Below the pieces are notes generated by a model. That model saw only the letters and a list, made by a program, of their open reading frames with translations, had not been told where the DNA came from and searched no databases. A stretch of 64,000 nt of DNA from Streptomyces sp. NBC_01255 (GTDB lineage: Bacteria > Actinomycetota > Actinomycetes > Streptomycetales > Streptomycetaceae): the NCBI RefSeq assembly GCF_036226445.1, contig NZ_CP108474.1, forward strand, positions 496,001 through 560,000, given 5' to 3'. The stretch's first letter is position 1. Each line of letters opens with the position of its first letter. The position numbers and the translations under genes are program-made. Shown here in pieces: positions 1-26,494 of this stretch.

Positions 1-646
1 CCGCGGGACGGCCGAACTCACCGCCCAGCCACCAGGAGAACTTCACCGCCGGATACACGCACGCCAGCACGCAGGCAGCGTATGCCGGCCACGCCGCCTG
101 CCACGCCTCCGCGTCGGGCGTACGGCCGCACCTGTCGCAGCCGGTCCCCGTCACGCGTTGGTACGCCAGTACAGTCCTGGCCAGCGCCACAGTCGCGACG
201 AAGGCCGCCGCTCGGGTGAGAAAGCCGGGCCAGTCGACCTGTGCGAAGTCACCGGCGGGGATACCGGTGGCCCAGAAGAAGGCGCGGAAGCCGTCGAAGA
301 CGACACCGACCGCGGCCCACAGCAGCAGCACGGACGCGAGCCAGCCGACGGCCACCACCGGCCGCCGCCGCCCCACGCCACGCGAGATGGCGAGCGTCGC
401 GCCCAGTCCGAGTAGGCCGGCGGCACAGGGCGCCCAGCCCGGGACGATGCCCAGGGACGTGATGTAGTCCCGCCCGCCGGGAAGGTACGGCTGGACGGCC
501 CAGGTCGCGAGAGTGGCGGCGGCGCCCAGGGCACTCACCGCCACTGGTACGGAGGAGGACCTGGGCACGGCCACAGGTGGTGTCCGGCTGTCGTTCGTCA
601 CGCGGTCGTTGGCCACGCGGTCGTTCGTCACGCTGTCGTTCGTCAT
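1..646 (-). CDS. Membrane protein, 3' end cut by window edge
   Basis: I do not recognise the family. Reading on the minus strand from an ATG at 646 gives an open frame to the window edge (215 codons). After about 38 polar residues come several hydrophobic stretches: around residues 39-55, 67-90, 103-120 and 150-166, then another near the edge. A Cys pair in the motif GCDRCGRTP sits in the loop after the fourth and could bind a metal or form a disulfide. The last readable part contains paired Trp and Cys residues in a further hydrophobic helix. There is no clear Shine-Dalgarno sequence, so the start could be later. The gene lies 96 bp downstream of the RiPP operon end and may belong to ordinary chromosome outside the cluster. 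Confidence 0.7.
   Translation of the reverse strand, partial: MTNDSVTNDRVANDRVTNDSRTPPVAVPRSSSVPVAVSALGAAATLATWAVQPYLPGGRDYITSLGIVPGWAPCAAGLLGLGATLAISRGVGRRRPVVAVGWLASVLLLWAAVGVVFDGFRAFFWATGIPAGDFAQVDWPGFLTRAAAFVATVALARTVLAYQRVTGTGCDRCGRTPDAEAWQAAWPAYAACVLACVYPAVKFSWWLGGEFGRPA
587..646 (-). repeat. Four 15-bp units encoding TND(S/R)V
   Basis: The first 20 codons of the membrane protein are four near-identical five-codon units (MTNDS, VTNDR, VANDR, VTNDS). This is an in-frame microsatellite-like expansion at the polar N-terminus and also makes the exact start uncertain. Confidence 0.8.
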
Positions 647-742
647 GCGACCACCGTGGCCGCCGCAGGACCATGAGCGCGTCTGTCCTAAGTCTCGATG
701 CCGTACGACCTGAGACAGAGACAGCGCGACTTCCCTGCCGCG

Positions 743-2107
743 TCACACCCTCGCGCGTGTGCGGGAGAAGGCAGCCGACCGCCATGCCGGCCTGAGTCCC
801 GCCGTTACCGGACCTGAGAGCCTCGGGTGGTGGAGTTCCTCCTCGCGGTCGCCGTAGAGCATGGTCACGTTGATACGGAGGTTCTCGTAGCCGGGGCGGA
901 AGCGGACCGCGTCCGACGCGTGGAAGAGGTCCGAGTTGAAGATCACCGCCCGGTTCCGCCGGTACGGGATGGTGATGCTGCGGGCCTGGCGGCTCCGCAG
1001 GAACGGCCGGATCAGGTCCTGGCGGCCGTTGTAGCTGTCGAAGCCCCAGGACAAAGGGGCGTCCACGTCGTGCACCACCAGGCCGCCCGAGTGCTCGTCG
1101 GCGTTCGCGGCGTCCGGCGTGATCCAGAAGTTGACGTTGACGGCGGCGAAGTCCGCGTGCGTGGTGACGTCGGCCGGTACGTCGGGGCCGCACTTGAAGC
1201 CCCAGATCTGGCGCAGCGGGTACCTGTCGCCGATCAACCGGGGCAGGGCGTCCCGTAGTTCCTCGGCGATCTGGGTGAGCAGGGGGCAGACGAACCCGTC
1301 CTGCATGAGCGAGCCGAGCCGACCGTGGTCGTAGCGGTTGCCGAACCACACCGTCGACTCCAGACAGAACCGGTACAGCTCCTCCAGTGCCTCCTCGGTG
1401 AGGAAGTCGTCGACGGTCACCACGCCGGGTGCGTTCGCCATGTACTGGTCCTCGACCCCGGTGGGATCCCACCGGCGGGACAGGGCACGCGCCACGCGCG
1501 GAGTGTCACGGACATGCAGCAGTCGGTTGTAGGTGGGCGCGATGCTCCGATTGGCGTCGGTGTCGAGGGGTTCCCTGGCGTCGGGTCCCCCGAGCACCAG
1601 CCGCTCGTGCACGGCCCGGTAGGAGTCGATGACCTGCTCGTACTCCGCACCGAGCACGCCCAGACGCCGGAGGTGGCGCATCTGGTCGATGTCGTGGCGC
1701 AGCTTCGGCACGCTCAGCGGGACGACCGACCGCACGGCCGGGTCGGAGGAGCCCCAGCGCAGCCGGGCGAAGAGGAGGGCACATGCCTCGGCGAGCGGGA
1801 AGTCGCCCCGTTCCAGAGCCACCGTGACCGCCTCCGGCAGCCACTCCGGCTCCGACTCCGGCTCCGGCTCCGGCTCCGGAGCGCCCTCGCCCGGGCCCGG
1901 CTCGTCACACCACGGCAGCGCCTCTTCCCAGCGCCCCGAGGCGGCCAGCAGGAGCGCCAGTTCGCGGCGGGCCGACCGGTCCTCGGGGTCGGCCCGGAGC
2001 ACGTCGGCGAGGACGCGCGCCGCCTCCTCCGATCCGCCGGAACCGGCGGCTGCCCTCACCCGGGCGACCACCGGACCGGCGTCCCATGACGTTCCCACCC
2101 GCGTCAC
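743..2107 (-). CDS. 2-oxoglutarate/Fe(II)-dependent oxygenase with helical N-terminal half
   Basis: 454 residues. The C-terminal half has the double-stranded beta-helix signature: an H-x-D iron ligand pair in THADFAAVN near residues 316-318, the distal His in FNSDLFHASD near 395, and a downstream Arg in the FRPGYENLRIN stretch that fits 2-oxoglutarate binding. The N-terminal half looks helical and TPR-like, with an acidic EPEPEPESEPE linker near residue 75. The GTG start overlaps the previous stop as GTGA, so translation is probably coupled. As the last gene of the radical SAM operon it most likely hydroxylates or desaturates the modified peptide, for example on a Lys or hydrophobic side chain. 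That role is inferred; the fold call is fairly secure. Confidence 0.8.
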   Translation of the reverse strand: MTRVGTSWDAGPVVARVRAAAGSGGSEEAARVLADVLRADPEDRSARRELALLLAASGRWEEALPWCDEPGPGEGAPEPEPEPESEPEWLPEAVTVALERGDFPLAEACALLFARLRWGSSDPAVRSVVPLSVPKLRHDIDQMRHLRRLGVLGAEYEQVIDSYRAVHERLVLGGPDAREPLDTDANRSIAPTYNRLLHVRDTPRVARALSRRWDPTGVEDQYMANAPGVVTVDDFLTEEALEELYRFCLESTVWFGNRYDHGRLGSLMQDGFVCPLLTQIAEELRDALPRLIGDRYPLRQIWGFKCGPDVPADVTTHADFAAVNVNFWITPDAANADEHSGGLVVHDVDAPLSWGFDSYNGRQDLIRPFLRSRQARSITIPYRRNRAVIFNSDLFHASDAVRFRPGYENLRINVTMLYGDREEELHHPRLSGPVTAGLRPAWRSAAFSRTRARV

Positions 2108-2844
2108 CCGAGCCCGAGCGCGCCGCGCGCCCGGAGCTCCACCGCGTAGCGGGCGAGACCGTCGAGGGTCACCGTGGTGTACGGCGGCGCGAAGTCCGAG
2201 CCGATCGCGTGGGCCTCCTCCGCCTGCGTCGTCCTGATCCACGTGGTCCAGGTGATGGAGGTCAGCGGCGTGATGCCGCGGGGCTCGATGCCGACGCCCT
2301 CCTGGGACTCCGCCGGCGCTCCGCCGTGCCGGCCGTTCTCGTCGCCGCAGAGCGTGTGCGCGGCGTGGAGGTTGACGAAGTAGTGCAGCAGGTCCTCGGT
2401 GAGTCCGTGGATGCCTGTCCCGGCCACGCACCCTTCGAGCAGGGCGGCGACGATGTCCTGACCACCGTTGGCGACCGTCGCCTCGCAGAAGTCGGCGAGG
2501 AACTCGGGACCGGTGGGGACCCTGTCCGTGTGGTCGTGGACGTAGTCCTGGAGCCACTGCAGGAGCTTCGCGTTGGCGAAGACCGCGTACACGAGGCGGT
2601 CGGTGTAGGCCGCCTGCTCCGCCGTGACGGGCGGGACGTCGAGGTACTCCGTGAGGATCCGGGACGGACCGGTGATGAACTGCTCGCGGAGCAGGAAGTC
2701 CGTCTCCATGGCCTGGAACAGGGCGTCGATGCGCCGTACGTTCGCGGCGCGGGCCATCATGGTGGACCGCTGCGCGTTCCCCTGCCTGCGGGACGGCCTC
2801 TCCGGCGCCTTGTGGTCCAGCGTCTTCTCCAGGACGTTCTCCAC
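2104..2844 (-). CDS. Unrecognised protein of the RiPP operon
   Basis: 246 residues from a GTG with AGGAGAG 7 bases upstream. I do not recognise it. No membrane segment or nucleotide-binding motif is visible and most of the chain looks helical. The segment from about residue 38 (ALFQAMETDFLLREQFI, then PSRILTEYL) loosely resembles the helical leaders or small helper domains of RiPP systems, and a later stretch has TSITWTTWIRT. It sits between the acyltransferase-like gene and the oxygenase and overlaps the latter by 4 bp, so it is probably co-made with the tailoring enzymes. It could be a peptide-binding partner, a second substrate or an enzyme of unknown type. Confidence 0.75.
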   Translation of the reverse strand: MENVLEKTLDHKAPERPSRRQGNAQRSTMMARAANVRRIDALFQAMETDFLLREQFITGPSRILTEYLDVPPVTAEQAAYTDRLVYAVFANAKLLQWLQDYVHDHTDRVPTGPEFLADFCEATVANGGQDIVAALLEGCVAGTGIHGLTEDLLHYFVNLHAAHTLCGDENGRHGGAPAESQEGVGIEPRGITPLTSITWTTWIRTTQAEEAHAIGSDFAPPYTTVTLDGLARYAVELRARGALGLG

Positions 2845-2893
2845 CGTGCTCTCTCCTTCGGGTTGTTCGTTCTCGTCGTGTGAACCAGGGGGG

Positions 2894-3784
2894 TCACAGG
2901 GCCGGTTCGGCTGGTGCCGGTTCGGCTGGTGCCGGTTCGGCTCGCTCGGCTTCGTGGAGGCTGCCCCACGCCATCCACTGCTCCGGTGCCGCGTTCACGC
3001 ACCGGTCCAGCCACGTGCCGTACGCGTCCAGAGCCGCGTCGGCGGTGCCGGGCAGCCGGGCCCCGACGCACGGGGCGATCCGGCCCGCGACCTCCGGGGC
3101 CGCCACCGCCCGCGTCTCGAGCTGCCGTCTGGCGGCCAGGGCGAGCAGGCCGGTCGGCACGTTCAGCCGGCCGCCGAGCACCGACAGGGCGCGTACGTCC
3201 CGGGTGCCGGGGTAACAGGTGTCCAGATTCGCGACCATGACGGCGTCCGAGCCCAGCCAGCGGCGGATGTCGGCGGCGGCCAGCCGCGTCAGCAGCAGGG
3301 GTTCGCCGAGCCGCAGCCGCTCCGCGTACATCTTCCGTACCAGCGGGTTCCGGTCGTGCACGATCGGGAGGACGGGCCGTCCCGTGGCCTCCGCCACGAG
3401 GAGCGGCACCATCAGCGCGTGCCCGAGCTGGGTGGTCAGGACGAGGCGGGTCGTGCCCAGCCGGGCGCGCACCTCGGCGACGGCTTCTTGCCACCCCGGG
3501 AGGACCTCACGCGGTCCGTGCCGCAGGATGTCGTGCAGGCGGAGGTAGTACCCGGCCAGCCAGCTCACCATGGCGACGTACGGATCGGTGGGATGCCGCC
3601 AGTGCGCGGTGTAGCGCCCGCCGTGGCACCGGAGGAAGAGCTTGACGTCGTCGCCGATGGTCTCGGCGAGCACCCTGACGGCGTACCGGTGCCGTGCGCC
3701 TTCGCCGTACGGAGGCGGCGGATGTGCGGCCAGTTCCCGCAGGACGGCGACGTCCCAGTCCGAACCGGTGATCCGGATGCTCAT
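2894..3784 (-). CDS. Possible acyltransferase (LpxL/HtrB-like), tentative
   Basis: 296 residues. The ATG overlaps the stop of the radical SAM gene as ATGA. The middle (QLGHALMVPLLVAEATGRPVL, then HDRNPLVRKMY) and the tail (APEQWMAWGSLH) resemble the layout of lauroyl/myristoyl acyltransferase-like proteins, which have a pocket motif in the middle and a PEQW motif near the C-terminus. The classical HxxxxD catalytic pair is not clearly preserved, so activity is uncertain. If it is an acyltransferase, it could put a fatty acyl group on the RiPP product. An enzymatically dead structural homologue is the alternative. The last residues are an Ala-Glu-Pro-Ala repeat tail. Confidence 0.65.
   Translation of the reverse strand: MSIRITGSDWDVAVLRELAAHPPPPYGEGARHRYAVRVLAETIGDDVKLFLRCHGGRYTAHWRHPTDPYVAMVSWLAGYYLRLHDILRHGPREVLPGWQEAVAEVRARLGTTRLVLTTQLGHALMVPLLVAEATGRPVLPIVHDRNPLVRKMYAERLRLGEPLLLTRLAAADIRRWLGSDAVMVANLDTCYPGTRDVRALSVLGGRLNVPTGLLALAARRQLETRAVAAPEVAGRIAPCVGARLPGTADAALDAYGTWLDRCVNAAPEQWMAWGSLHEAERAEPAPAEPAPAEPAL
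2901..2945 (-). repeat. Three 15-bp direct repeats at gene end
   Basis: The unit GCCGGTTCGGCTGGT occurs twice perfectly and a third time with its last bases changed. It encodes the AEPAP-type tail of the acyltransferase-like protein immediately before the stop codon. Replication slippage in a disordered tail is the simple explanation. Confidence 0.9.
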
Positions 3785-5373
3785 CGCGGGGGCGCCACGG
3801 CGAGGTCGGGCGCCGTGGCCGCGCCGGAGCCTCCGGCCGCCCGGGACTTCGCCCGCTCGTGGTAGGCGCGGAGCGCCGACCCGCGGCGAGAGACGTCCTC
3901 CAGGATGCGGGGGAACAACGCGAGCCGGGTCGTGCACTCCAGCTCGTCCACCGAGAACAGCGAGCCGTTGTTGATCAGGGCGCGCGCCGGGCACGTGCCC
4001 GCGCACTGATGGAGCCAGGGGCAGGAGGCGCACGGCGCGTCCTCCGTGAGCCACCGCTCGCGGTCGCGCAGGGCGGCCGCCGCCGGGGTGCTCCGGCTGC
4101 GTACGGTCAGGGAACCGTCGGCGATCGGCAGCAGAGTGCGTCCGGGTGGCGGGGCCACGGCGGCCCGGGGCAGCAGCTGGAACGCGGGGTGGTAGCTGCA
4201 GTCGCAGGCCCGGACGGAGCCCACCGCGTCCAGGACCAGGAGGTCGCTGGAGGCGCCGCAGGGCATCTTCATGCACATGTTGGGGCGTTCGACGGAGAGG
4301 AACGGCTCGATCAGCTGGACCAGGTTGGTGAGGTACGGGGGTTCGAGGTCCCCGTCCAGCACCTCCGTGAGCCGTCTGCCGAGGAAGGCGGCGAACGTCT
4401 GCCGGAACCGGTGTGTCTCGGGCTTGTCGTCGGCGCGTCCCTCGGCGTCGGCCGGGAGCATCTTCCAGCTGTGCACGCCCATGCCCCGGAAGAACTCCCA
4501 GACGCGGTCGAGGTCGTCCGGTGTGGTGTCGGTGCCGACGACGCTGATGTAGCCGACCTCGTCGCGCATGAACTCGGGGAAGCGGTCGAAGTTCTCGACG
4601 ATCCGCGCGAACGTGCCGCGGCCGCGGTGGTCGACGCGGTGCCGGTCGTTGATGTCCTGCGGCCCGTCCAGGGAGACGCCGACCGTGAACGCGTGCCTCC
4701 GCAGGAACGCGACGACGTCCTCGGTGAAGTGCCGGCCGTTGGTCTGGACGGTGAAGTGCACGGACGCCCCCACCTCGGTGGCGCGCAGTTCGGCGAACTC
4801 CACGAGCTCGCGGATCTGGCCGAACCGCAGCATGGGTTCACCGCCGTGGAACATCAGCGTCAGCCGACGCCCGGGGACCAGGCATTCGGTGATGAGCCGT
4901 CGAGCCACTTCGGAGGTCATCCGGCCCGGCCAGCGTCCGCTGTCGTAGTCGTAGCAGTAGTCGCAGGCGATGTCGCAGGCGCCGGTGAGTTTCAGCAGGA
5001 GCGCCGTCGGCGGCTCGGCGCCGACGGCCTCGCCGGCGCCGACGACTCCGTCTCCGACGCCGCGCGGTGCGGGCACGGCGCGGACCCCGGTCCGGCCGCC
5101 GACGAAGACCAGGCCGGCGTCATAGAGGGCCCGCAGGGTGCCGGCCGCGTCGGGAAACCCCGGCCAGGCGGTGAATTCGGCGACGCTCGTGCCGTCCAGG
5201 GCGTCGAGCATCGGATACAGGGCGGCCGGCAGTCGGAGCCAGCCCGGCCGGCCGTGCGGCAGCAGGAGGAGTTCGTCGTCCTCCACCGGGATGCGGTAGT
5301 GGCGGGCGACCCGGATCGGCTCGCCGCCGTCCAGGTCCTCCCAGCGGGGCAGCGGAGCGATGCTGTATTTCAT
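3781..5373 (-). CDS. Radical SAM/SPASM peptide maturase
   Basis: 530 residues; ATG at 5373, 7 bp after the precursor stop. The radical SAM cluster motif is CDIACDYCY (Cys near residues 132, 136, 139), followed by MFHGGEPML, the glycine-rich SAM site. N-terminal to the barrel is a domain of about 110 residues that may recognise the leader. The C-terminal SPASM region has Cys in CDCSY near 388, then CASCPWLHQCAGTC around 450-465 and ECTTR near 479, enough ligands for auxiliary Fe-S clusters. SPASM enzymes of this layout install C-C, C-O or thioether crosslinks in ribosomal peptides. Its position directly after the precursor candidate and the WSK motif in that candidate suggest a Trp-Lys crosslink, by analogy with darobactin. 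Confidence 0.92.
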   Translation of the reverse strand: MKYSIAPLPRWEDLDGGEPIRVARHYRIPVEDDELLLLPHGRPGWLRLPAALYPMLDALDGTSVAEFTAWPGFPDAAGTLRALYDAGLVFVGGRTGVRAVPAPRGVGDGVVGAGEAVGAEPPTALLLKLTGACDIACDYCYDYDSGRWPGRMTSEVARRLITECLVPGRRLTLMFHGGEPMLRFGQIRELVEFAELRATEVGASVHFTVQTNGRHFTEDVVAFLRRHAFTVGVSLDGPQDINDRHRVDHRGRGTFARIVENFDRFPEFMRDEVGYISVVGTDTTPDDLDRVWEFFRGMGVHSWKMLPADAEGRADDKPETHRFRQTFAAFLGRRLTEVLDGDLEPPYLTNLVQLIEPFLSVERPNMCMKMPCGASSDLLVLDAVGSVRACDCSYHPAFQLLPRAAVAPPPGRTLLPIADGSLTVRSRSTPAAAALRDRERWLTEDAPCASCPWLHQCAGTCPARALINNGSLFSVDELECTTRLALFPRILEDVSRRGSALRAYHERAKSRAAGGSGAATAPDLAVAPPR

Positions 5374-5380
5374 CGTGGCG

Positions 5381-6103
5381 TCAGCAGCAGGTGGTCTTGG
5401 ACCAGGAGGAGGGCAGCAGTGCGTCGTTGTCCGCACCGTCCACCTCACGGACGTCGAAGCGGCCGAACCGGTCGACGTCGAACCCGCTCTCCCGCAGGTA
5501 GTCGTGGATCTCCGGGCTGACCCGTGACGTGAAGGGAACGCCGTCGCCGCCGAGGAGGCCCCGGTTGTTCGCCGCGATCGCCTCCAGGTCCACCCCGTGA
5601 GTGCGCAGATAGGCGCGGGCCCGCTCCGAGAGCCGGCAGTCCCCGAACAGGGCGGTCGCGACGTCGGCGGTGAGCTCGTCCGACTCGGCGATGTCCCGGG
5701 CGCCGCTTCCCGGGAGCTTGATGTTGATCTCCAGCGCGTCGGAGGGCCGCTCCTTGCCGTCGTACGCGTCGTACGTGAAGGTCATGAGGGCGCACCCACC
5801 CGAGGTGAGGTCGATGCCGTGCCGCCGGCAGACCTCGGCGAGCTTGTCGCTCGGGACGAACTCCACGGCGCCGGGGGACGGGCAGATGCCGAGGGGCTCG
5901 CGGGCGGCGAGCGAGGCGAGGTGGTTGAAGTCGATGCCCTCCTGCGCGAGCGCTTCGCTCAGTTCGGGCCTGACGCGTTCGTTGCCGAAGAGGAAGCGGG
6001 CGAGTGACAGCTCGAAGCGGGCCCGCCGCCCGGCGGGCACGTCGACGGGGACGAGGACCTCGATCTGGACGACGGGGACGTTCGTGATCTTCTGGGTGGT
6101 CAT
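5381..6103 (-). CDS. Putative RiPP precursor with about 230-residue leader and WSKTTCC C-terminus
   Basis: 240 residues; ATG overlaps the flavoprotein stop as ATGA. The protein is two divergent tandem copies of one domain: LFG (38-40 and 152-154), GID/GVD (56 and 170), a Gly-x-x-Phe strand (78-82 and 188-191), HGID/SGFD (95 and 206), YDG/VDG (114 and 221) and DAL (122 and 227). After the second copy comes PSSWSKTTCC (231-240), where the first copy instead has EINIKLPGSG. W234-S235-K236 matches the crosslinked WSK of darobactin, and the terminal Cys pair suits an EpiD-like decarboxylase. It lies between exactly those two enzyme genes. The length is extreme for a leader, so a substrate-carrier protein or a non-precursor partner remains possible. 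Confidence 0.7.
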   Translation of the reverse strand: MTTQKITNVPVVQIEVLVPVDVPAGRRARFELSLARFLFGNERVRPELSEALAQEGIDFNHLASLAAREPLGICPSPGAVEFVPSDKLAEVCRRHGIDLTSGGCALMTFTYDAYDGKERPSDALEINIKLPGSGARDIAESDELTADVATALFGDCRLSERARAYLRTHGVDLEAIAANNRGLLGGDGVPFTSRVSPEIHDYLRESGFDVDRFGRFDVREVDGADNDALLPSSWSKTTCC

Positions 6104-6738
6104 CTGCTGTGCTCCGTTCTCTGGGGACGTGAGGGAGGAGTCTGTGGCGGTACGGCGGTCAGCGCGGCGAGAGCGGCGGCGACCTCCGCCACCGGGGGCG
6201 CGGTGCCGTCGCGGGGAGGCAGCACCTGGACTCCGGCGGACCGGAGGCGTCGGATGTTCCGCCGGACCGGTTCGCCGTTCCACATGCGGGGATGCATCGA
6301 CGGCACGACGAGGGTGGGGATCCCTGTCGCGCACAGGTAGGCGGTGGAGGCCAGGTCGGTCGCGAGCCCGTTGGCCACCCGCCCGAGGAACCCGGCCGAG
6401 GCCGGGTAGACCAGCACCCGCCGGGCCACGTCCGTGAGCCAGACGTGCAGCGGCCGGAGCCCGGGGCCGGTGGTCTCGCGGGTCAGCACCGGGCAGCGGC
6501 CCAGGTGCCGGACCGCCGCCGGAGTCACGAACCGCCGTGCCGCGTCGGTGAGGACGACCGCAGTGGGCCCCGGAAGCGCCGACGACAGTTCGTGGAGGAG
6601 GCCGCCGATGTTGACCGCGGCGACCGACCCGGTCCCGATGACGAGCGTCAGCCCGTCGCGGGAGGCCGTCTCGGTGAACGCCTCGGTGAACGTCTCAGTG
6701 GGACCGTACGGGGGCGGCGCACCGATGTCGTCGAACAT
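6100..6738 (-). CDS. HFCD-family flavoprotein, EpiD/LanD-like cysteine decarboxylase
   Basis: 212 residues; ATG at 6738 preceded by CCGGAG. The fold matches homo-oligomeric flavin-containing Cys decarboxylases: a phosphate-binding VIGTGSVAAVN at 33-43, the active-site His in PLHVWL (H98), a PASAGFLGRVANGLATDL stretch matching the PATANT...ADxL motif, and PSMHPRMW at 146-153. The last corresponds to the family PxMNxxMW motif, but its Asn is replaced by His (H149). Family members (EpiD, MrsD) oxidatively decarboxylate a C-terminal cysteine to an enethiol, and the next gene encodes a protein ending Cys-Cys. The Asn change means activity may differ from EpiD. Confidence 0.85.
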   Translation of the reverse strand: MFDDIGAPPPYGPTETFTEAFTETASRDGLTLVIGTGSVAAVNIGGLLHELSSALPGPTAVVLTDAARRFVTPAAVRHLGRCPVLTRETTGPGLRPLHVWLTDVARRVLVYPASAGFLGRVANGLATDLASTAYLCATGIPTLVVPSMHPRMWNGEPVRRNIRRLRSAGVQVLPPRDGTAPPVAEVAAALAALTAVPPQTPPSRPQRTEHSR

Positions 6739-6900
6739 CCTGATCTCCGGAGGGGGGTGGGGTCGCTCGACGCCTCGCGGAACTCGTGCGAGAGCGCCAT
6801 GGCCTCATCGATAGCAGGCGTGGAAAGGCCCTCCGGGGAACCTGCGTGCGACGCTCGGTCAATCAATCCCAACAGCGGACCGGCATGTGGGGTACGGGCC

Positions 6901-8226
6901 TCAGGCCCCGGCCCCGGCCTCACCGGCGGGTGCGCCCGGCAGGTCGCGGAGGCCGCGCAGCGGCCCCACCAGGAGGAAACCGCCGGCTGCGACAAGCGCG
7001 GCCGTGACGGCCCACATCGTGGAGCGGGCGCCGAAGAGGGAGGCGAGGGAGCCGCCCAGGAGGGCGCCGAGCGGGATGGTGCTGTAGTTGAGGAACAGGG
7101 TGGTCGCGGTGACGCGCCCCAGCAGCGCGGGCGGGCAGTACGCCTGCCGGAAGCTGACGGTGATGACGTTGCAGGCCACTATCCCGGCGAGCATCACGGT
7201 CGTTCCGAGCACGAAGAACGCCAGCCCCGGCCCGGGACCGGCGAGCGCGGCGAGGAGCCCGAAGGGCGAGGCGGCGAACTGGATGGCCAGCAGGGCGCGT
7301 GCCGTGCCCAGGCGCCGGGCGAGCCGGCCGGCCACGAGGCCGCCGAGCACCCCGCCGAGACCGCCGCAGGAGACGAGCCAGCCGAGCGTGTCGGAGCCGA
7401 CGCCGACGGTCCGCACGAGGAAGACGATCTGGACGGCCTGGAAGCCGGCCATCGCCAGGTTGACCGCCGCGCCGAAGGCGGTGACGGCCCGGACCCACGG
7501 GTCACCGACGACGAAGCGCAGGCCGTCGGAGATCTCGCGGCTCAGGCGCCGCCGGGGCGGCGGGGCGGGGCGCGGCCCTTCGGGGCGGATGGCCAGGAGA
7601 CAGAGCGAGGACACCACGAAGGAAGCCGCGTCGAGCAGCAGGCCCGGCACACTGCCCACGGTCTGGGCGATCAGCCCGCCGAGACCGGGGCCCGCCACCC
7701 TGGCGGCCTGATCCCCGGCCTGAAGCTGCGCGTTGCGGTCCATCAGATCGGCCGTGGGGACCAGTTGGGGCAGATAGGCCGAATAGGCGGTGGAAAAGAA
7801 GACGGAGGCGGTACCGGAGATCAGGGCGGCCGCAAGGAGATGGCCGATGGACAGGAATCCCAGCCACCACGTGGCCGGAACACTCACGAACACCGCCGCG
7901 GAGACGGCGTTGCACACGAGCATCACCCGGCGCGGCGGAAGACGGTCGACCCACGCACCGGCAGGCAGGCCGATGACCAGCCACGGCAGCCACGGCGCTG
8001 CGGTGAGCACACCCATCACGAACGGCGAGGCCTGGAGTGTGGCGACGGCCACGAGCGGCAGCAGGACGGACGTCACGCTGGTGCCCAGCTTGCTGGTGGT
8101 CTCGCCGACGAGCAGCAATCGGAAGTTCCGGCGGGAGCGTCGGTCCTGGCCTTTCGCGGACTGCGTGGCAGCCGGCACAGCGGATTCCAGAACGGCCTCC
8201 GGACTTCGATAGCACGACGAATTCAT
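6901..8226 (-). CDS. MFS exporter
   Basis: 441 residues, about twelve hydrophobic helices. After a 33-residue polar N-terminus comes NFRLLLVGETTSKLGTS, typical of helix 1 in MFS efflux proteins. The loop between helices 2 and 3 carries GAWVDRLPPRR, the motif A analogue. A central Pro/Arg-rich loop (PRPAPPPRRRLSREI) separates the two halves. It is the first gene of the minus-strand RiPP operon, so export of the mature peptide or self-protection is the likely job. It could also serve the divergent NRPS product. No good Shine-Dalgarno precedes the ATG at 8226, so a start a few codons later is possible. Confidence 0.85.
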   Translation of the reverse strand: MNSSCYRSPEAVLESAVPAATQSAKGQDRRSRRNFRLLLVGETTSKLGTSVTSVLLPLVAVATLQASPFVMGVLTAAPWLPWLVIGLPAGAWVDRLPPRRVMLVCNAVSAAVFVSVPATWWLGFLSIGHLLAAALISGTASVFFSTAYSAYLPQLVPTADLMDRNAQLQAGDQAARVAGPGLGGLIAQTVGSVPGLLLDAASFVVSSLCLLAIRPEGPRPAPPPRRRLSREISDGLRFVVGDPWVRAVTAFGAAVNLAMAGFQAVQIVFLVRTVGVGSDTLGWLVSCGGLGGVLGGLVAGRLARRLGTARALLAIQFAASPFGLLAALAGPGPGLAFFVLGTTVMLAGIVACNVITVSFRQAYCPPALLGRVTATTLFLNYSTIPLGALLGGSLASLFGARSTMWAVTAALVAAGGFLLVGPLRGLRDLPGAPAGEAGAGA

Positions 8227-8382
8227 GGCGCGCCACAGAGTACGTGCGGTGGCCGGGAGTTCGGGCTGGATCGTACAAGTTCATCGCCCTGGAAACCAGG
8301 GTGGCCATTTCCCGCTGGTGCCGTTTAGGCTCTGCCGCGTCCATTGCCAACGAACCATGCCTCGTGGGAGGGTCGAGCCCGG
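8227..8382. promoter_or_regulatory. Divergent promoter region between RiPP and NRPS operons
   Basis: This 156-bp gap between the MFS gene (leftward) and the MbtH-like gene (rightward) must hold both operon promoters. A possible -10 (TAGGCT) for the rightward side lies near 8328. I see no convincing operator repeat. Confidence 0.5.
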
Positions 8383-8556
8383 ATGATCAATCCGTTCGCG
8401 AATGAATCCGGTCAATTCCCGGTCCTCGTAAATGGCGAGAACCAGCACTCCCTCCGGCCTTTGGAATTTGATATTCCGGCCGGATGGAGCACGGCATTCG
8501 GACCGGACCTGCGGGCGGCGAGCCTGCGTACCGCGATGGCCACGGCACCGCACTAG
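8383..8556 (+). CDS. Truncated MbtH-like protein
   Basis: 57 residues starting [18 protein letters not shown]. The N-terminal two thirds follow the MbtH pattern (NPF..., LVN, QHSLRP, IPAGW). Two things differ from working family members of about 65-75 residues. The first conserved Trp of SLWP, which packs against the adenylation domain, is Arg here. The C-terminal helix with the NWTDMRP signature is missing, replaced by [12 protein letters not shown]. It heads the NRPS operon, where an MbtH chaperone is expected. It may be a degraded copy, with the intact MbtH at 42411-42626 supplying function in trans, or a divergent but working one. Confidence 0.75.
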
Positions 8557-8648
8557 CGACGGCCCCGGCGAGAGGCCGCGCCCCGCTCCCGTCACCTCCG
8601 TCATCGCCCACACCGGCACCGTCCTCTCTCCCCTGCAAGGAGCTGTCC

Positions 8649-11600
8649 GTGGTCACCAGCGCGATCGACCTCCTCACGCGGTTTCTGCGGGAGGCGGCCC
8701 GGCACCCCGACCGTGCCGCCGTGATGACGCCGTCGGAGTCGGTGACGTTCGGCGAGCTGGGCGAACGGGTCGAGCGGACCGCACAGTTGCTGAGCGCGGC
8801 GGGCGCGGGGCCCGGTACGACCGTCGCCCTGGATCTCCCCCGGGGTGTCGACCTTGTGGCGGCGATGCTCGCGGTGTGGCGGGCCGGCGCGGCGTACGTA
8901 TCGCTCGACCCCGCCCATCCGGCGCACGGGCGGCGCCTGTTAGCCGAGGATGCCGGGGCTCGTCTCGTGCTCACCGCGGGGCCGGACGACACCGAGTGGC
9001 CGGCGGGCACGCGCCGCCTCGAACTGGGCTCCCGGGCCGGTCTCCCTTCCAGCCTCGACCCGGTGTCGTCGGGTACACCGGCCCCGGCGCGGGTGGTGTG
9101 GGACGCGGACCTCGGGTCGGACGCCTCGGTGCGGCAGTGGGTCCGGATCTGCCGCGGCGACACCCTGCTCCTCCCGACCGACGAACTGCGCGCCGACCCC
9201 GGACTGTTCGCCCGGTTACTCAAGGAGTACGGGGCCACCGGCCTCGACGGCGTGGACGCCCCGGCACGACCGCTGCTCGACCTCTTCGAGGAGCGCGCCG
9301 GGGCCGCCCCGGACGCCACCGCCCTGGTGTTCGGGAAGGACGAGGTCTCGTACGCGGAGCTCGACGCCCGCGCGAACCGACTGGCCCATGTGCTGGCCGC
9401 GCGGGGCGCCGGGCCGGAGACGGTGGTCGCCTCGGCGCTCGACCGCTCGGTGGAACTGGTCGTCGCGGTCCTGGCGGTGATGAAGGCCGGGGCCGCCCAT
9501 CTTCCGGTAGACCCCGGCTACCCGCAGCAGCGCATCGCCCACATCCTGGGCGACGCGGCCCCGGCACTGCTCCTCGCGGATTCCGGCACGGCCCTCCCGG
9601 CCGGCACCGCGGTGCCGCGTACCGACATGGACGATCCGGAGACCGCCGCGGCGCTGCGGCGCGCCCCGGTGTCCGGCCCGCCGGCCGGCGCCCGGCGCGC
9701 AGAGCGCGACCTGCCCGCGTACGTCATCTACACGTCCGGGTCCACCGGCCTGCCGAAGGGCGTGGTCGTCACCCGCTCCGGTCTCGCCAACCTCACCGCC
9801 CACCAGCGCGACACCCTCGCGGTGGACGCCGGCAGCCGCGTCCTGCAGTTCGCCTCGCCCAGCTTCGACGCGTTCTTCTGGGAACTGGCGATGGCCCTGT
9901 CGGCGGGGGCCGCGCTCGTCCTGGCGCCCGCCCTCAGCCTGCTGCCCGGGCCCGGACTGCGCCGTCTCGCCGACGAACAGCGGGTCACCCACGCGACCCT
10001 GCCCCCGTCGGTGCTGCGCGTCCTGCCGTCCGACGCCCTCCCGCGCGTCCGTGTCCTGGTCGCCGCCGGCGAGGCCCTGGACGCGGACCAGCAGCGGCGC
10101 TGGGCTCCCGGCCGGACCCTGATCAACGCGTACGGACCGACGGAGGCCACGGTCTGCGTCACCATGAGCCGGCCCCTCGCGGCGAGCGCCGGCCCACCGC
10201 CGATCGGCGGGGCGATCCGGGGCACGCGCCTCCATGTCCTCGACGCCGCCCTGCGGCCGGTGCCCGCCGGAGTGGTGGGCGAGCTGTACGTCGCCGGGGC
10301 GGGCCTGGCCCGCGGCTATCTGGACCGGCCCGGTCTGACGGCGCAGCGGTTCGTCGCGGACCCGTTCGGCCCGGCCGGGACGCGGATGTACCGTACCGGC
10401 GATCTGGGCCGCCGGCGGACGTCGGGCGAACTGGAGTTCGCCGGTCGCTCGGACGATCAGGTCAAGGTACGCGGACACCGGATCGAACCCGGCGAGGTCG
10501 AGGCGCGGCTCGCCGAACACCCCGGGTTGTCCGCCGCCGCGGTGACCGTGCACGAGGACCAGGACGGTGACCGCAGGCTCGTCGCCTACGTCCGCCGCGA
10601 GTCGACCGCGTCGGCGAGCGCCGGCCGAGCGAGCGACGCGGCCCGCGTGGCCGACTGGCGCCGCGTCCTCGACGCCGTGCCGGCCGACGGCCGACCGACG
10701 GCCTTCGGCGAGGACTTCACCGGGTGGAACAGCGCATACGACGGCAGCGCGCTGCCGCTGGAGGAGCTGCGGGAGTGGCGCGACGAGACCGTACGGAGCA
10801 TCCGTGCCCTGCGGCCCCGGCGCGTTCTCGAACTCGGCGTGGGCAGTGGTCTGTTGCTGTCGCGTCTCGCCCCCGAGGCGGAGGCCTACTGGGGGCTCGA
10901 CCTCGCGCCCCGGGTGATCGAGCGGCTGCGGCGGCAGGTGGACGAGCGACCGGACCTGGCGGGGCGGGTGGTGCTGCACAGCCGGCCGGCCGACGACCAC
11001 GAGGGCGTCCCGCGCGGGTACTTCGACGTGGTCGTCCTCAACTCCGTCGTCCAGTACTTCCCCAGCGGACGCCATCTCGCGCGGGTGCTGGAGCTCGCGG
11101 CGGCCGCCCTGGCGCCCGGTGGGTCGGTGTTCGTCGGCGACGTCCGGCACCTGGGGCTCATGGAGTCCTTCCACGGTACGGTCGCGGCCCGTTCGGCGGG
11201 CACCGTACCGGGAAGCGGGGAGCATCGCCGGGCCGTGGCGCGCGGCATCGCTGCGGAGCCGGAGCTGCTGGTGGATCCGGAGTTCTTCCGGTCGCTGACG
11301 GTCCCGGCCGAGGCGTCCGGGCCGCTCTTCGCGACCTGCGACGTACGGCTGAAGCGGGGAACCCATCACAACGAACTGACCCGCTACCGCTACGACGTCG
11401 TCCTGCGCCGCACCGGCGAAGCACCGTCGCCCCGCACCGGCGCGGTGGCGGAACTCCTGTGGGGAGCGGACGTGCGGACGCTCGCCGACGTCGCCGACGT
11501 CCTGCGCGACCGTGCGCGGGACGCCGTACCCGTCCGGGTCGCCGGGGTGCCCAACGCGCGCCTCGCCGAGGATCTGCGCGCGGCGGGCGGGACACCGGGC

Positions 11601-12302
11601 TCCGGTCCGGACCCGGAGGAGCTCGCGCGGCTCGGCGAACGGCTGGGGCACCGCGTCGTGGTGCGCTGGTCCGCGAAGGCTGGGCCCGACCACGTCGACG
11701 CCGAGTTCTCCTCCGGGGAGTGGGACGTCCCGCCGGAGATCGGAACCGAGCCGGTGGTCGATCCCGAGCGCCATGTCAACGTGCCCTTCGCGGCGTCCGA
11801 CGACACGGAGCTCATCGCATCGGTCGGCGCATGGGCGGCCGCGTACCTCCCCGTGTACATGGTGCCGTCCGCGATCGTCGTCCTCGACGCGTTGCCGCTC
11901 ACCCCGCACGGCAAGCTCGACCGGGCGGCCCTGACCGCCTTGCCGGCCTCGCACGGCGCCCGGCGCGGGGCCGGCCGCCGGCCGCGGACCCCGCAGGAGG
12001 CGGCGCTGTGCCGGATGTACGCGGAGGTCCTCGGGCTCGCCACGGCGGGCCCGGCGAACGGGGTGGACGCGCCGAGCGGGGACGACGCGGCGTACGTCGT
12101 GGGGATCGACGACGACTTCTTCGCGCTCGGCGGCCATTCGCTGCTCGTCACCCGCCTGGTCAGCCGCGTCCGCGCCGAGCTGGGAGTGGAGGTCCAGGTC
12201 CGTACGGTCTACGACGCGCCCACGGTGGCCGGCCTCGCGTCCCGGCTCACGGGAACCCGCACGGCACGACCGGCCATGCGGAGAATGCCGCGCCCCGGCT
12301 GA
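8649..12302 (+). CDS. NRPS starter protein: A fragment, A interrupted by methyltransferase, PCP
   Basis: 1217 residues. The GTG start is set by AAGGAG 6 bases upstream. Residues about 5-190 are the N-terminal part of an adenylation domain ([25 protein letters not shown]) lacking the A3-A10 motifs. A complete A domain follows: [11 protein letters not shown] near 358, [23 protein letters not shown] near 605. Between A8 and A10 ([10 protein letters not shown] near 1082) lies a SAM methyltransferase with [10 protein letters not shown] near 727, the usual position of embedded N-methylating domains. [13 protein letters not shown], Ser near 1164. My reading of the ten-residue code is DAWTVAAVCK, close to Phe. 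With no C domain it should load the first residue, plausibly N-methyl-Phe. Two TTA codons lie in the A fragment. Confidence 0.9.
8940..8942 (+). other. In-frame TTA codon (bldA target), codon 98 of starter NRPS
   Basis: TTA is very rare in this GC-rich DNA. Here it follows CTG within the vestigial A fragment. In Streptomyces, translation would depend on the bldA leucyl-tRNA. Confidence 0.85.
9216..9218 (+). other. Second in-frame TTA codon, codon 190 of starter NRPS
   Basis: This TTA lies in the context CGG TTA CTC, at the very end of the A fragment. Both TTA codons of the gene are in this extra domain; I saw none in the working part. Confidence 0.85.
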
Positions 12303-12365
12303 CGGCGGCACGGGCTCGCGACACCGACCGGCTCACATACGGCAAGGGTTACCGAAGGATTCCCG

Positions 12366-13433
12366 ATGGACTTCAGCCTCTTCTACTTCGCCGACGACAG
12401 CACACCGGAGGGAGACGCCGGACGGTACGAACTCCTCCTGGAGGGCGCCCGCTTCGCCGACCGGAACGGCTTCCGCGCGGTATGGACGCCCGAACGGCAC
12501 TTCCACCCCTTCGGCGGGCTCTACCCGAACCCGTCCGTGGTGGGCGCCGCCCTGGCGATGATCACAAGCACCGTCGCCATCCGCGCCGGGAGCGTCGTCG
12601 CGCCGCTCCACCATCCGCTGAGGATCGCCGAGGAGTGGTCGGTCGTGGACAACCTCTCCGGCGGGCGGGCCGGGGTGTCCCTCGCCTCCGGCTGGCACCC
12701 GGTGGACTTCGCGCTGAGCCAAGTGCCGTACGAGGACCGCAAACGCATACTGGGCGACAGCATCGGGCAACTCCGCGGGCTGTGGCGCGGCGACGGCCAC
12801 GAGGTCGTGGACGGCAACGGCGCCCCCGCGACCGTACGGATCTTCCCGCCACCGGTGCAGCGGGAGCTGCCGCTCTGGGTGACCAGTGCCGGCGACACGG
12901 ACACCTTCCGTACGGCGGCGGTGGCGCGGGCCGGTGTCCTCACGCATCTGCTGCACCAGGACGTCGACGAACTCGCCGCGAAGATCGCCGCGTACCGGCG
13001 GACGGCGCGTGGAACGCACGACGGCTGGGACGGGCATGTCGTCCTGATGCTGCACACCTTCCTCGGCGCCGACCGGGACGAGGTGCGCGCCACCGTCGAC
13101 GGACCGCTGCGGGCCTATCTGAGGAGCTCGGTCCATCTCCTCGCCCGCTCGTTCGGCGCCCTCGACCCGGACTTCGACATCGACGCGCTGGAGGACGAGG
13201 ACCTCGACTTCCTCGTCGCCCAGTCCTTCGACACGTACTTCGAGCAGCGGGGGCTGTTCGGAACGGTGGAGGAGGCGACGGCGACGGTCGAGCGGCTGCG
13301 CGGCATCGGCGTGGACGAGATCGCCTGCCTGATCGACTTCGGCATCGACACCAAGACCGTTCTGGACGGGCTGCGCCATCTGAACGCCCTCCGCGAAGCA
13401 TCCGCCCTCCGCGAAGCATCCGAAGCGAACTGA
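12366..13433 (+). CDS. Luciferase-like flavin monooxygenase, MupA/Atu3671 type
   Basis: 355 residues with GAAGG upstream of the ATG. It has the TIM-barrel luciferase-like pattern: [11 protein letters not shown] at the start, [21 protein letters not shown] (residues 39-59), [30 protein letters not shown] and LPLWVTSAG. This matches the subgroup found embedded in or next to NRPS/PKS lines, thought to oxidise carrier-bound substrates with reduced flavin. Here it stands alone between the starter NRPS and the next NRPS gene, separated by 63 and 29 bp, so it should act on the growing peptide or a tethered residue. The C-terminus carries a small duplication ([11 protein letters not shown]). The exact reaction cannot be read from the sequence. 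Confidence 0.85.
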
Positions 13434-13462
13434 TCCGAGAGACCCGAGAGGCCGAGACCACC

Positions 13463-16400
13463 GTGATCCCTCTGTCGTTTTCGCAGCTGCGGTTCTGGTT
13501 CCAGAGAGAGATGGACCGCGCCGGCGAATCGCCCAACGCCTCGATGGCACTCCGGCTGACGGGCCCGCTGGACCGGGCGGCGATGCGCGACGCGCTGCGG
13601 GACGTGGTGTCGAGGCACGAGATCCTGCGCACCGTCTTCCCGGTCACCGACGGAGTGCCCGGGCAGCGGATCCTGGAGGCGGTGACGGTCGAGCTGCCTC
13701 TGCGACGGGTCGCGGAGAAGGACGCCGATGCGGCCGTGACGGAGGCGGCCGAGCGCCTCTTCGACCTGGGGCGCGAGATCCCGCTGCGGGCCGTCCTGCT
13801 CGCCGTCGGCTCGCACGACCACCACGTCGACCACCACGTGCTGGCGATCACCGTGCACCACATCGCCTTCGACGGCTGGTCCGTCGCACCGTTCCTCCGC
13901 GAGCTGTCGTACGCCTACACCGCACGCCTCGACGGCGGACCACCGTCCTGGGACGAACTACCCTTCCAGTACGCGGATTTCACCCTGTGGCAGCGCAAGG
14001 AGCTCGGCGCACCCGACGAACCCGGCAGCCTCTTCGCCGAGCAACTGGCCCACTGGACCCGCGCCCTCGCCGACGCGCCCGCCGAACTCCCCCTGCCCTC
14101 CGACCGGCCGCGCCCTGCCGCCGCCACCCACCGTGCCGGCACCGTCCCCTTCCATCTGCCGCCCGACAGCTTCCGGCACCTCGCCGGCCTCGCCCTCCGG
14201 CACGGCGCCAGCACGTTCATGGTCCTCCACGCGGCGCTCGCGGGGCTCCTCCGGCGGCTCGGCGCCGGCACCGACATCCTGGTCGGCAGCCCGGTCGCCG
14301 GACGCACCGACGTCGGCCTCGACGACCTCGTCGGCTGCTTCGTCAACACCGTCGTCATCCGGACCGACACGTCCGGCGACCCCGACTTCCACGACCTGCT
14401 CCAGCAGGCCCGGGCGGGGGTCACGGCCGCGCTCGACCACCAGGACGTGCCCTTCGAGCAGGTCGTGGAGGCCGTCAACCCGGCACGGTCGGCGGCCCGG
14501 CACCCGCTCTTCCAGGTCATGCTCAGCCTGCAGAACAACGCGGGCGCCGCCGCGCACCTCCCCCACCTCGACACCCGCCTGCTGGACCCCGGCCCCCACC
14601 GGACGGTCTCCTTCGACCTGCTCCTCGACGTCACCGAGACCGACGGGGCGCTCGACGGCTCCCTCGTCTACGCCCGCGACCTCTTCGACCACGACACCGC
14701 CGAGCGTCTGGTCCGCTGCTTCACGGCCTTCCTGACCCAGGCGGTCGCCGCGCCGGAGCGGCGCATCGGCCGGCTGGAGATCCTCGACCCCGCCGAGCTC
14801 CGGACGACGTCGGAGACCTGGAACGGCCCGGACACGGCGCTGCCTGCCGACTCCGTACCGGAGCTGCTCCGGCGGCGCGCGGCCGCCGCGCCCGATGACA
14901 CCGCGGTGATCTGCGGCGCGTCCCGGCTCACCTACGCCGGGCTTGAGGCCCGGTCCGACCGCCTCGCCCGCCGGCTGCGCGGACAGGGCGCGGGTCCGGA
15001 AGAGCTGGTCGCCGTGGCCGTGAACCGCTCGGCCGACCTGGTCGTCGCCCTGCTCGCCGTACTGAAGACGGGGGCCGCCTACCTTCCCCTGGACCCGCGC
15101 AACCCGGTGGAGCGGCAGCGCGCGATCCTGGAGGAGGCACGGCCCTGCCTGCTCCTGGCGGACGCGTCCACGAAGGAGCGGGCCGAGGACCTCACGGGCG
15201 TGCCGCTGGTCCTGGCCGAGGACGCCGATCCGGCCGATGCCGATCCGGCCGGTCTCGATCCGGATGCGGACGGTTGGCCGGACATCACCGGCGACCGGGC
15301 CGCGTACGCGATGTACACGTCCGGCTCCACCGGCCGCCCCAAGGGCGTCCTCGTGACCCATCGGAACATCGTCGCTCTCGCCGCCGACACCTGCTGGGCG
15401 GCGGACGGTGGCCACGCGCGGGTACTCGCCCACTCGCCGCACTCCTTCGACGCCTCGACGTACGAGCTGTGGGTGCCGCTGCTCGGCGGCGGCACGGTCG
15501 TGATGGTGCCGGCCGGTGACTCCTCGCCGGGGGCACTGGAGCGGGCCGTGGCCGAGGGGGGCGCGACGAGCGTGTTCCTGACCACCGCGCTCTTCAACCT
15601 GCTGGTAGCGGAGAGAAGTTCACTCCTCGGCCGGCTCCGGCACGTCTGGACGGGTGGTGAGCAGCCGTCGGGCGGGGCCGTGCGGCAGATGCTGACGGAC
15701 TTCCCCGGCGCCGTGCTGACCCATGTCTACGGGCCGACCGAGAACACGACGTTCACCACCTTCAGGAGCCTGGACCCGGCCCGGGACGCGGACGGCGGCA
15801 AGCCGACGATCGGCCGGCCCATGGCGAACACGCGGGTGTACGTACTGGACGAGTGGCTCCGGCCGGTGCCCGTGGGGGTGCCGGGCGAGCTGTACGTCGC
15901 GGGCGCCGGACTGGCCCGCGGCTACCTCGGCCGCCCAGGTCTCACCGCGGGGCGTTTCGTCGCCGACCCCTACGGCGCGCCCGGCACCCGCATGTACCGC
16001 ACGGGTGACGTCGTCCGGTGGACCGCCGGCGGCGAGCTCGACTTCCTCGCCCGCGTCGACGACCAGGTCAAGATACGCGGCTTCCGCATCGAACCCCGCG
16101 AGATCGAGGCCGTCCTGGAGCGTCACCCGGCCGTCGGCCGCGCCGCCGTCCTCGTACGGGAGGACGGGCCCGGGGAGCGCGGCCTCGTCGCCTACGTCGT
16201 CCCCGCCCCGCACGTCGACGGCGATCCCGCCCCGGAACTCGCCGAGCACGCCAGGCGGGCCCTGCCCGACTACATGGTCCCCGTCGTCGTCGTACTCCCC
16301 GACGGGCTTCCCCTCACGCCCAACGGCAAGCTCGACCGGGCGGCTCTGCCCGCCCCCGGGAAGGGCAGCGGCTCCCGCGTGCCCCGCCCGCCCCGCACGC

Positions 16401-24100: not shown

Positions 24101-25095
24101 CCGCCGCCCGCCGGGAGGCGGCCCACGCGCACGAGGAGCCGCTGTGCGCGCTGTTCGCCGAGGTGCTCGGGGTGGACCGGGTCGGCCCGGACGACGGCTT
24201 CTTCGATCTGGGCGGGCACTCGCTCCTTGCGACGCGGCTGGTGAGCCGGGTGCGTGCGGTCCTGGGTACCGACCTGTCCGTCCGTGCCCTGTTCGAGGCG
24301 CCGACCCCGGCCGCCCTCGCACGCCGGTTCGACGGCGAGGGAGACGGCTCCGGTCTGGACGTGCTGTTGCCGCTGCGGACCCGCGGACGTCTGAGGCCGT
24401 TGTTCGCGGTGCACGCGGCGAGCGGCCTCGCCTGGCCGTACGCCCGGCTGCTGCCGCACCTGGATCCGGATGTGCCGCTGTACGGGCTGCAGGCGCCGAG
24501 CCTCACCGATCCGGAGGGCGGCGCGCGCACGCCGGAGGAGCTGGTGCGGGAGTACGCGCGGCGGATCCGGGAGGTGCAGCCGGAGGGCCCGTACCGGCTG
24601 CTCGGCTGGTCGGTCGGCGGCACCCTTGCCTTCGGCGTGGCCGCGGAGCTGGTGGCGGCGGGGCTGGCCGTGGAGTTCGTGGCCCTGCTCGACTCGTATC
24701 CGGCTCCCGAGGAGGGGCTGCCCGACTGGGAGGAGACGCACCGGCACGTGGCCGGGTCGGCCGGTTTCGCCGCGGACGGGACGCCGCCGGAGCAGATCGC
24801 GCTGCTCGGGGAGCGGGCGGTGGAGGGCGCGCGGCTCGCGGTGCGGTCGGCGGTGGACGCGCTGCGGACCGCTCCGGCGCGGACGCACGGTGTGGACGTG
24901 CTCCACTTCCGGGCCGCGTCGGACGCCTCGGACGCCGCCCCGGACGCCTGGCAGGTGTGCGGCGGCGGGCGGCTCTCGACGTTCGACGTGGCGTGCGGCC
25001 ACTACGAGATGCTGGATCCCGCTCCGCTCGCCTCGATCGGCGAGGTGCTGTCGGACCGGGCCGCGGAAGGCACGGCGGTCACGACGGGGCGTTGA
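21187..25095 (+). CDS. Terminal NRPS module, C-A-PCP-TE
   Basis: 1302 residues; the GTG overlaps the previous stop. A Gln/Glu-rich leader of about 25 residues ([14 protein letters not shown]) may act as a docking segment. The C domain has [10 protein letters not shown] near 158 and follows an E domain, so it should accept a D-configured donor. The A domain has [11 protein letters not shown] near 627; my code is DVFSVGITYK, which I cannot assign. The PCP is [10 protein letters not shown], Ser near 1012. The thioesterase has the nucleophile motif GWSVGG near 1140 and a late His in CGHYEML. It should release the four-residue product by hydrolysis or cyclisation. The gene ends 29 bp from the oppositely oriented cysN. 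Confidence 0.93.
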
Positions 25096-26492: not shown

Positions 26493-26494
26493 GC

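Follow-up and report, generated by a model that had tools for sequence, protein, structure and literature searches.

Gene layout and the invariant tail of a precursor-like protein

We analysed a window of 64,000 nt (positions 496,001-560,000, 72% G+C) of the 8.57-Mb genome of Streptomyces sp. NBC_01255. It contains seven minus-strand open reading frames (ORFs) at 743-8226, which a previous sequence-only reading had reported and which the ORF list and our own reading of the sequence confirmed (Table 1). The same reading had placed a 240-amino-acid (aa) protein with a WSKTTCC end between the genes of a homo-oligomeric flavin-containing Cys decarboxylase (HFCD) type flavoprotein and of a radical S-adenosylmethionine (SAM) enzyme with SPASM motifs. 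This was borne out: the C-terminal letters of the protein are ...LLPSSWSKTTCC and it terminates with ...NDALLPSSWSKTTCC, the last seven residues being WSKTTCC. Together with the gene of a 296-aa protein, these three genes form a conserved four-gene unit.

A search of 5.8 billion proteins returned 25 homologues of the 240-aa protein, the window's own copy included, all of which were aligned (alignment A1; the window sequence replaces the identical copy P0001). In 25/25 rows the last seven columns read W-[STE]-K-[TA]-T-C-C with W, K, T, C and C invariant; conservation of a C-terminal WxK and Cys among homologues had been set beforehand as the check on the prediction. The variants were WSKTTCC (13 rows), WTKATCC (6), WEKATCC (2), WEKTTCC (2), WTKTTCC (1) and WSKATCC (1), and a 26th copy from Virgisporangium, outside these rows, ends in WSKTTCC too. 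Between the leader, which is conserved up to column 224, and the tail lies a linker of 11-20 residues that varies in sequence and length, and a Gly-rich spot ahead of the tail is common in the homologues. Shuffling the protein 300,000 times never produced a W.K..CC end. The window and five other loci have 1,355 stop-to-stop frames of 60 aa or more in all six frames; in these the pattern W.[KR].{1,2}CC was found in the five precursors of the present family, in the precursor of a second family (locus L014, see below) and in two other frames (110 and 142 aa). The leader is internally duplicated (the A1 halves align over 58 columns in hhalign, E 7.8e-7, probability 91.7), and an AlphaFold model based on the 25-row alignment had a mean predicted local distance difference test score (pLDDT) of 78.6. 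The locus combines a gene-encoded precursor, a conserved core and adjoining modifying enzymes, as is general for ribosomally synthesised and post-translationally modified peptide (RiPP) systems. The tail is invariant where this had been predicted, and the view of the 240-aa protein as a substrate-like partner of the two enzymes was supported.

Four related loci were obtained from GTDB species genomes, giving five with the window: L005 from Streptomyces sp. NBC_00572, L006 and L007 from two Streptacidiphilus and L008 from Virgisporangium. The HFCD, precursor, radical SAM and 296-aa genes have the same order in 5/5 loci. When all called genes of L005-L008 were compared with each other and with window positions 1-9000, these four core genes were, apart from ORFs antisense to them, the only ones common to all five loci. 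This comparison of called genes gave no peptidase or exporter gene common to the five loci; a weakly similar regulator (29-32%) is found in L005 and L008. The genes of the 246-aa and the tetratricopeptide repeat (TPR)/oxygenase-like proteins had tblastn matches in 2/5 loci (window and L005). The major facilitator superfamily (MFS) gene occurs in 1/5, with no match at E <= 1e-3 in L005-L008, where the L007 contig covers about 2 kb upstream of the HFCD gene; as a core exporter it was rejected on this basis.

The seven genes are thus not conserved as a single unit, only four of them being kept. The MFS, oxygenase-like and 246-aa genes, without match in 4/5, 3/5 and 3/5 loci, respectively, do not belong to the core, and the suggested part of the oxygenase in the system is not supported. 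Regarding the layout, 4-base ATGA overlaps join the HFCD to the precursor gene and the radical SAM to the 296-aa gene, and a 4-base GTGA overlap joins the 246-aa to the oxygenase-like gene. Gaps of 7 and 49 bases lie between the precursor stop and the radical SAM start and between the 296-aa and 246-aa genes, respectively. The MFS gene is located 162 bases upstream of the HFCD gene and belongs less clearly to the same unit. A simple gene caller placed the starts of the MFS and TPR/oxygenase-like genes at 8178 and 2071 instead.

For the TPR protein no oxygenase domain was detected with Pfam, NCBIfam or PDB sequences, the HxD...H...R pattern being seen by eye only. Its gene is paired with that of the 246-aa protein in the two Streptomyces loci, and the C-terminal third of the latter looks precursor-like by eye (PLTSITWTTWIRTTQ). 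As the real precursor the 246-aa protein was rejected, since L006, L007 and L008 keep the tail but gave no match to this protein.

Table 1. Features of the minus-strand gene row in the window, in order of transcription.
Feature	Position	Strand	Evidence
MFS exporter	6901-8226	-	Pfam MFS_1 4.8e-31; EntS model 67 of 324 bits
HFCD (EpiD/MrsD/CoaC-type) flavoprotein, 212 aa, putative C-terminal Cys decarboxylase	6100-6738	-	Pfam Flavoprotein 8.4e-16
Precursor/carrier protein, 240 aa: internally duplicated leader, variable linker, C-terminal tail	5381-6103	-	
Putative modified tail (core) W-S-K-T-T-C-C	5384-5404	-	Alignment, 25 rows
Radical SAM enzyme, SPASM-type C-terminal Cys motifs	3781-5373	-	Pfam Radical_SAM 1.8e-18; Cys motifs by eye
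296-aa protein, LPLAT (LpxM/PatA) fold without conserved HxxxxD/E; fourth core gene	2894-3784	-	
246-aa protein, accessory	2104-2844	-	No Pfam/NCBIfam match at E <= 0.1; tblastn: window and L005
TPR and putative Fe(II)/2-oxoglutarate oxygenase-like domain, accessory	743-2107	-	TPR from Pfam; HxD...H...R by eye
LPLAT, lysophospholipid acyltransferase.

The putative modifying enzymes and the acyltransferase-fold protein

The radical SAM enzymes of the other loci share 93% (L005), 65% (L006), 64% (L007) and 65% (L008) identity with the window copy, which has an N-terminal extension of about 120 aa that resembles a RiPP recognition element by eye only. None of the 25 best NCBIfam radical SAM models (of 66 matched) reached its cut-off with this enzyme. 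The best match was the thioether enzyme PapB (122.6 bits, cut-off 340), and a quinohemoprotein maturase model was among the top matches (118 bits, cut-off 453). The models for the cyclophane maturases YhhB, FxsB, GrrM/OscB, XyeB and AmcB gave 60-109 bits at cut-offs of 310-450. With darobactin and the daropeptides the system shares a radical SAM/SPASM enzyme and a W-x-K core. It differs in that the WNW first half and the Phe after the W-x-K are missing, two Cys stand at the end, and HFCD and LPLAT-fold partners are present; the core was not of the WNWx(K/R)xF type in any of the 25 rows and the DarE model scored 69 bits at a cut-off of 650.

Active-site His, Flavoprotein domain and a PxMxxxMW-type motif are all present in the 212-aa flavoprotein, the solved relatives of which include MrsD, EpiD and CypD, enzymes that act on a C-terminal Cys. 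The motifs LHVWLTD, PASAGF and PSMHxRMW are found in 5/5 loci; we take the first and the third to have the roles known for them in HFCD proteins and the second to correspond to the motif called PASANT. The Asn of PASANT is a Gly in all five proteins. Such an Asn is not universal in these flavoproteins, since the best solved match, the putative flavoprotein decarboxylase 6jls, reads PATAAT at this position. The best NCBIfam match was CoaBC (87.8 bits, cut-off 219.7), and the CypD model gave 15 of 215 bits.

LanD and CypD-like enzymes act on a C-terminal Cys (PMC9415263), and HFCD enzymes oxidise and decarboxylate it to an enethiol (PMC9415263, PMC12291118). KinI is described to require the kinase-like KinH, whereas RosD alone suffices, and the kinase-fold RosX cyclises the enethiol after RosD and probably protects it (PMC9415263, PMC12291118). 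All 25 precursors end in Cys, as expected for an HFCD substrate. Like the LanD/HFCD RiPPs (lanthipeptides, cypemycin, thioamitides, kintamdin), the locus has an HFCD gene beside that of a Cys-ending precursor; unlike them it has a radical SAM enzyme instead of the usual partners. Neither kinase nor lyase was recognised by Pfam or NCBIfam among the seven window genes. Nor was a lanthipeptide dehydratase, in line with the earlier claim, the 246-aa gene being without family assignment. An obvious partner for an aminovinyl-cysteine (AviCys) ring is therefore lacking in this gene row.

The fold of the 296-aa protein is that of the LPLAT proteins LpxM and PatA. It was not found with a sequence profile against the PDB, and neither this protein nor the precursor had an NCBIfam model at E <= 0.1. 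Unlike in PatA and LpxM, no conserved HxxxxD/E is present: in an alignment of 18 rows the motif occurred in at most 3/18 sequences at any column. This alignment (A2) comprised 14/19 hits together with the window, L006, L007 and L008 sequences, and left out P0026 (the window's own) and the shorter sequences P0033, P0035, P0041 and P0043. The lack of a conserved HxxxxD/E makes ordinary acylation by the 296-aa protein doubtful, and the previously suggested acylation of the product is not supported, the protein having an acyltransferase fold without the canonical catalytic motif.

A second precursor family, rarity and neighbouring genes

When 296 genomes of the class were queried with the window radical SAM enzyme, one match at E <= 1e-45 was obtained besides its own, in genome G470. 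A 19.9-kb stretch around it (L014) contains on the plus strand a 123-aa ORF (9432-9803) and a radical SAM gene (9881-11173; true start possibly upstream), the product of which is 34% identical to that of the window and again matches PapB best (134 bits, cut-off 340; quinohemoprotein maturase model 115 bits). It is followed by a 272-aa ORF (11203-12021, plus strand) with a weak match to a phosphatidylinositol mannoside acyltransferase model (32 of 209 bits), which aligns with the 296-aa family over the C-terminal half only (hhalign E 2.5e-4, probability 43). No HFCD gene was found in the 19.9 kb by tblastn with the window HFCD at E <= 1, and a profile of the five HFCDs gave a best E of 0.19, versus 5e-114 on L008, which is one of the profile's own rows.

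The 123-aa protein has 16 homologues, itself included, 13/16 of which are 119-128 aa long. Here an internal W-x-x-W-x-R-x-C-C is present in 16/16 members with W, W, R, C and C invariant; 23 of 300,000 shuffles of one member contained W.[KR].{1,2}CC. The invariant flanks VNAV and H-x-E-S suggest that this protein may work as a whole. The family also occurs in Mycolicibacterium helvum (P0055) and in metagenomes. A radical SAM enzyme, an LPLAT-like protein and a W-x-[K/R]-x(1-2)-C-C precursor are hence found together twice. No further second-family loci were obtained from 396 genomes of the phylum, or from 198 genomes of a presumed mycobacterial genus (both sets being without a positive control), nor from plasmids and viral contigs, and G470 was alone among 3 genomes of its order. 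The radical SAM and LPLAT context of the second family is therefore known from one locus. The leader query had no match in viral contigs.

The four-gene system is rare. True matches, with the own genome counted in each case, were found in 2/61 relatives (not counting a weak hit to a cyclase-like ORF), in 3/394 genomes of the family (not counting a Clp-N-like ORF) and in 1/394 genomes of the class. In 250 genomes of the family to which L008's genome belongs the radical SAM query returned L008's own genome only (E <= 1e-38), and plasmids gave no match at E <= 1e-20.

Upstream of the gene row a divergent non-ribosomal peptide synthetase (NRPS) cluster is located at 8649-25095 on the plus strand, with an A domain carrying an inserted methyltransferase and two large ORFs that are of NRPS type by eye; it encodes a MupA/Atu3671-family luciferase-like monooxygenase (12366-13433). 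The MFS protein may belong to this cluster and export its product. An NRPS-RiPP hybrid was rejected: with a start near 8649, the NRPS genes run on the opposite strand, and their first protein is unmatched at E <= 1e-6 in L005-L008. The cluster is adjoined by CysN, CysD and adenylyl-sulfate kinase genes (25125-27972, minus strand), which suggests a sulfated product derived from 3'-phosphoadenosine 5'-phosphosulfate (PAPS). At 50089-53566 (minus strand) 4-hydroxyphenylpyruvate dioxygenase-like, FMN 2-hydroxy-acid-oxidase-like and aminotransferase-like genes stand in a row beside further NRPS-like ORFs (by eye), as in hydroxyphenylglycine pathways. In Streptomyces sp. NBC_00572 an ORF about 3.2 kb upstream of the HFCD gene (L005, 4810-6180, minus strand) weakly matches a thiazole-bacteriocin ThiF-like maturation model (53 of 562 bits).

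Proposed tail modification and its alternatives

Our favoured, albeit tentative, reading, to which we give somewhat less than even chances, is a RiPP-type modification of the carrier tail that combines a Trp-Lys cyclophane with decarboxylation of the C-terminal Cys. The duplicated leader would present the W-x-K-x-T-C-C tail, and the radical SAM/SPASM enzyme would most likely create a three-residue cyclophane in which an aromatic Trp carbon is bonded to the Lys side chain at i+2. Through the HFCD protein the C-terminal Cys would most likely lose CO2 and 2 H, and the resulting enethiol may react on, e.g. with the neighbouring Cys. For the LPLAT-fold protein a role in binding or protection, or as an enzyme with altered active site, appears more likely than ordinary acyltransferase activity. 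It could fill a part like that of KinH or RosX; since an LPLAT-like gene also occurs in a locus with no HFCD found, it is no less likely to act with the radical SAM enzyme or the leader. The two reactions and the sequence in which they occur, the part of the LPLAT-fold protein and a peptide release are inferred from the genes.

The motif itself fits a cyclophane. Cyclophane-forming radical SAM enzymes are described to join Trp to the residue at i+2, Arg included, with XncB joining Trp to Arg (PMC11002830). One darobactin-type core cluster reads WNWx(K/R)xF, which its authors take as a hint that Arg may replace the crosslinked Lys (PMC9055067). The W-x-K of the first and the W-x-R of the second family, with variable middle residue, follow this i+2 pattern and match the published cyclophane motifs (PMC11002830, PMC9055067). 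In triceptides (XncB/XyeB, OscB, YhhB) an aromatic residue is likewise joined to that at i+2, Trp-Arg included (PMC11002830); the present motifs fit this, with the link itself being putative. They differ from the present system by its long duplicated leader, the HFCD protein and the Cys pair, and the radical SAM enzyme stays below the cyclophane-maturase cut-offs among the matches listed. That an HFCD is seen only with the terminal-Cys family fits a C-terminal decarboxylation.

Several observations weigh against this scheme. The best family match of the radical SAM enzyme is a thioether enzyme, although below its cut-off, and the Gly in place of the PASANT Asn calls for caution regarding decarboxylase activity. 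The absence of HFCD in the second family is that of one locus, and with the Cys pair being invariant there as well, it may serve the radical SAM enzyme. No peptidase or exporter is common to the five loci. As source of the shared motif, common descent of the whole precursor proteins was rejected: a profile comparison of the two families was not significant (E 0.16, probability 0.4), although the tail motif was its sole aligned stretch.

A rather unlikely alternative, though the likeliest of three, is that the radical SAM enzyme forms a thioether from an invariant Cys to a tail carbon (ranthipeptide/sactipeptide chemistry), with W and K/R serving recognition and the HFCD then acting on the second Cys, at the terminus. 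Both radical SAM enzymes match PapB best, the ranthipeptides also having Cys in the core, and the Cys pair is invariant in both precursor families, the second of which was seen without HFCD. However, at a PapB cut-off of 340 bits neither score amounts to membership, and W is as invariant as Cys in both families, as are K in the first and R in the second. Substrates of PapB have an Asp or Glu following Cys in a CxxxD/E-type pattern, which the core of the first family, with no Asp/Glu after Cys, does not have.

We consider it quite improbable that the 240-aa protein stays whole, with the tail as a protein-borne redox or metal centre or a reused scaffold, an arrangement that could be combined with either chemistry. 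For this speak the length, predicted folding, duplication and good conservation of the leader, the missing shared peptidase and exporter, and the internal motif of the second family with conserved flanks on both sides. Quinohemoprotein amine dehydrogenase is an enzyme matured by radical SAM proteins, and the corresponding maturase model is among the top matches of both enzymes, well below its cut-off. On the other hand, the variable linker before the first-family tail resembles a leader-core boundary, and peptidases encoded elsewhere in the genome can serve. With a carrier protein there is a chance that the system is something other than RiPP-type. Very improbable is finally that the HFCD protein acts on a small molecule like CoaC or is a non-catalytic subunit, with the terminal Cys pair as recognition or metal-binding tag: CoaBC outscores CypD and the PASANT Asn is replaced in 5/5, but the gene adjoins and overlaps that of the Cys-ending precursor, and 6jls has no such Asn either.

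Returning to the Trp-Lys cyclophane with C-terminal decarboxylation, a radical SAM enzyme and a Cys-decarboxylating flavoprotein acting on one invariant tail would bring peptide chemistries together in a new way. Among the titles, abstract beginnings and passages covered in the open-access literature we found no description of the two enzymes on one precursor and no system with LanD, SPASM and cyclophane; likewise, open-access literature gave neither the tail letters nor a radical SAM enzyme with lysophospholipid acyltransferase and precursor peptide. A broader proposal appears possible but more doubtful: a radical SAM enzyme and a partner of acyltransferase fold would be common to two diverged precursor families, the first with terminal W-x-K-x-T-C-C and HFCD, the second with internal W-x-R-x-C-C and no HFCD found, the partner having lost its canonical catalytic motif (tested in the first family). 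The Trp-Lys cyclophane and enethiol of the first-family tail, formed with no dehydratase, would then make up a new warhead with a thiol, perhaps for metal binding or redox chemistry, that is either released or carrier-borne.

An enethiol without a dehydroamino acid partner would have to take a route other than AviCys formation. That the core is nearly invariant speaks for a single defined product or cofactor and not for an antibiotic that varies. With the pairing of radical SAM enzyme and LPLAT-fold protein in two families, a new kind of RiPP partner protein becomes open to testing, and the four-gene system is small and easy to reconstitute.

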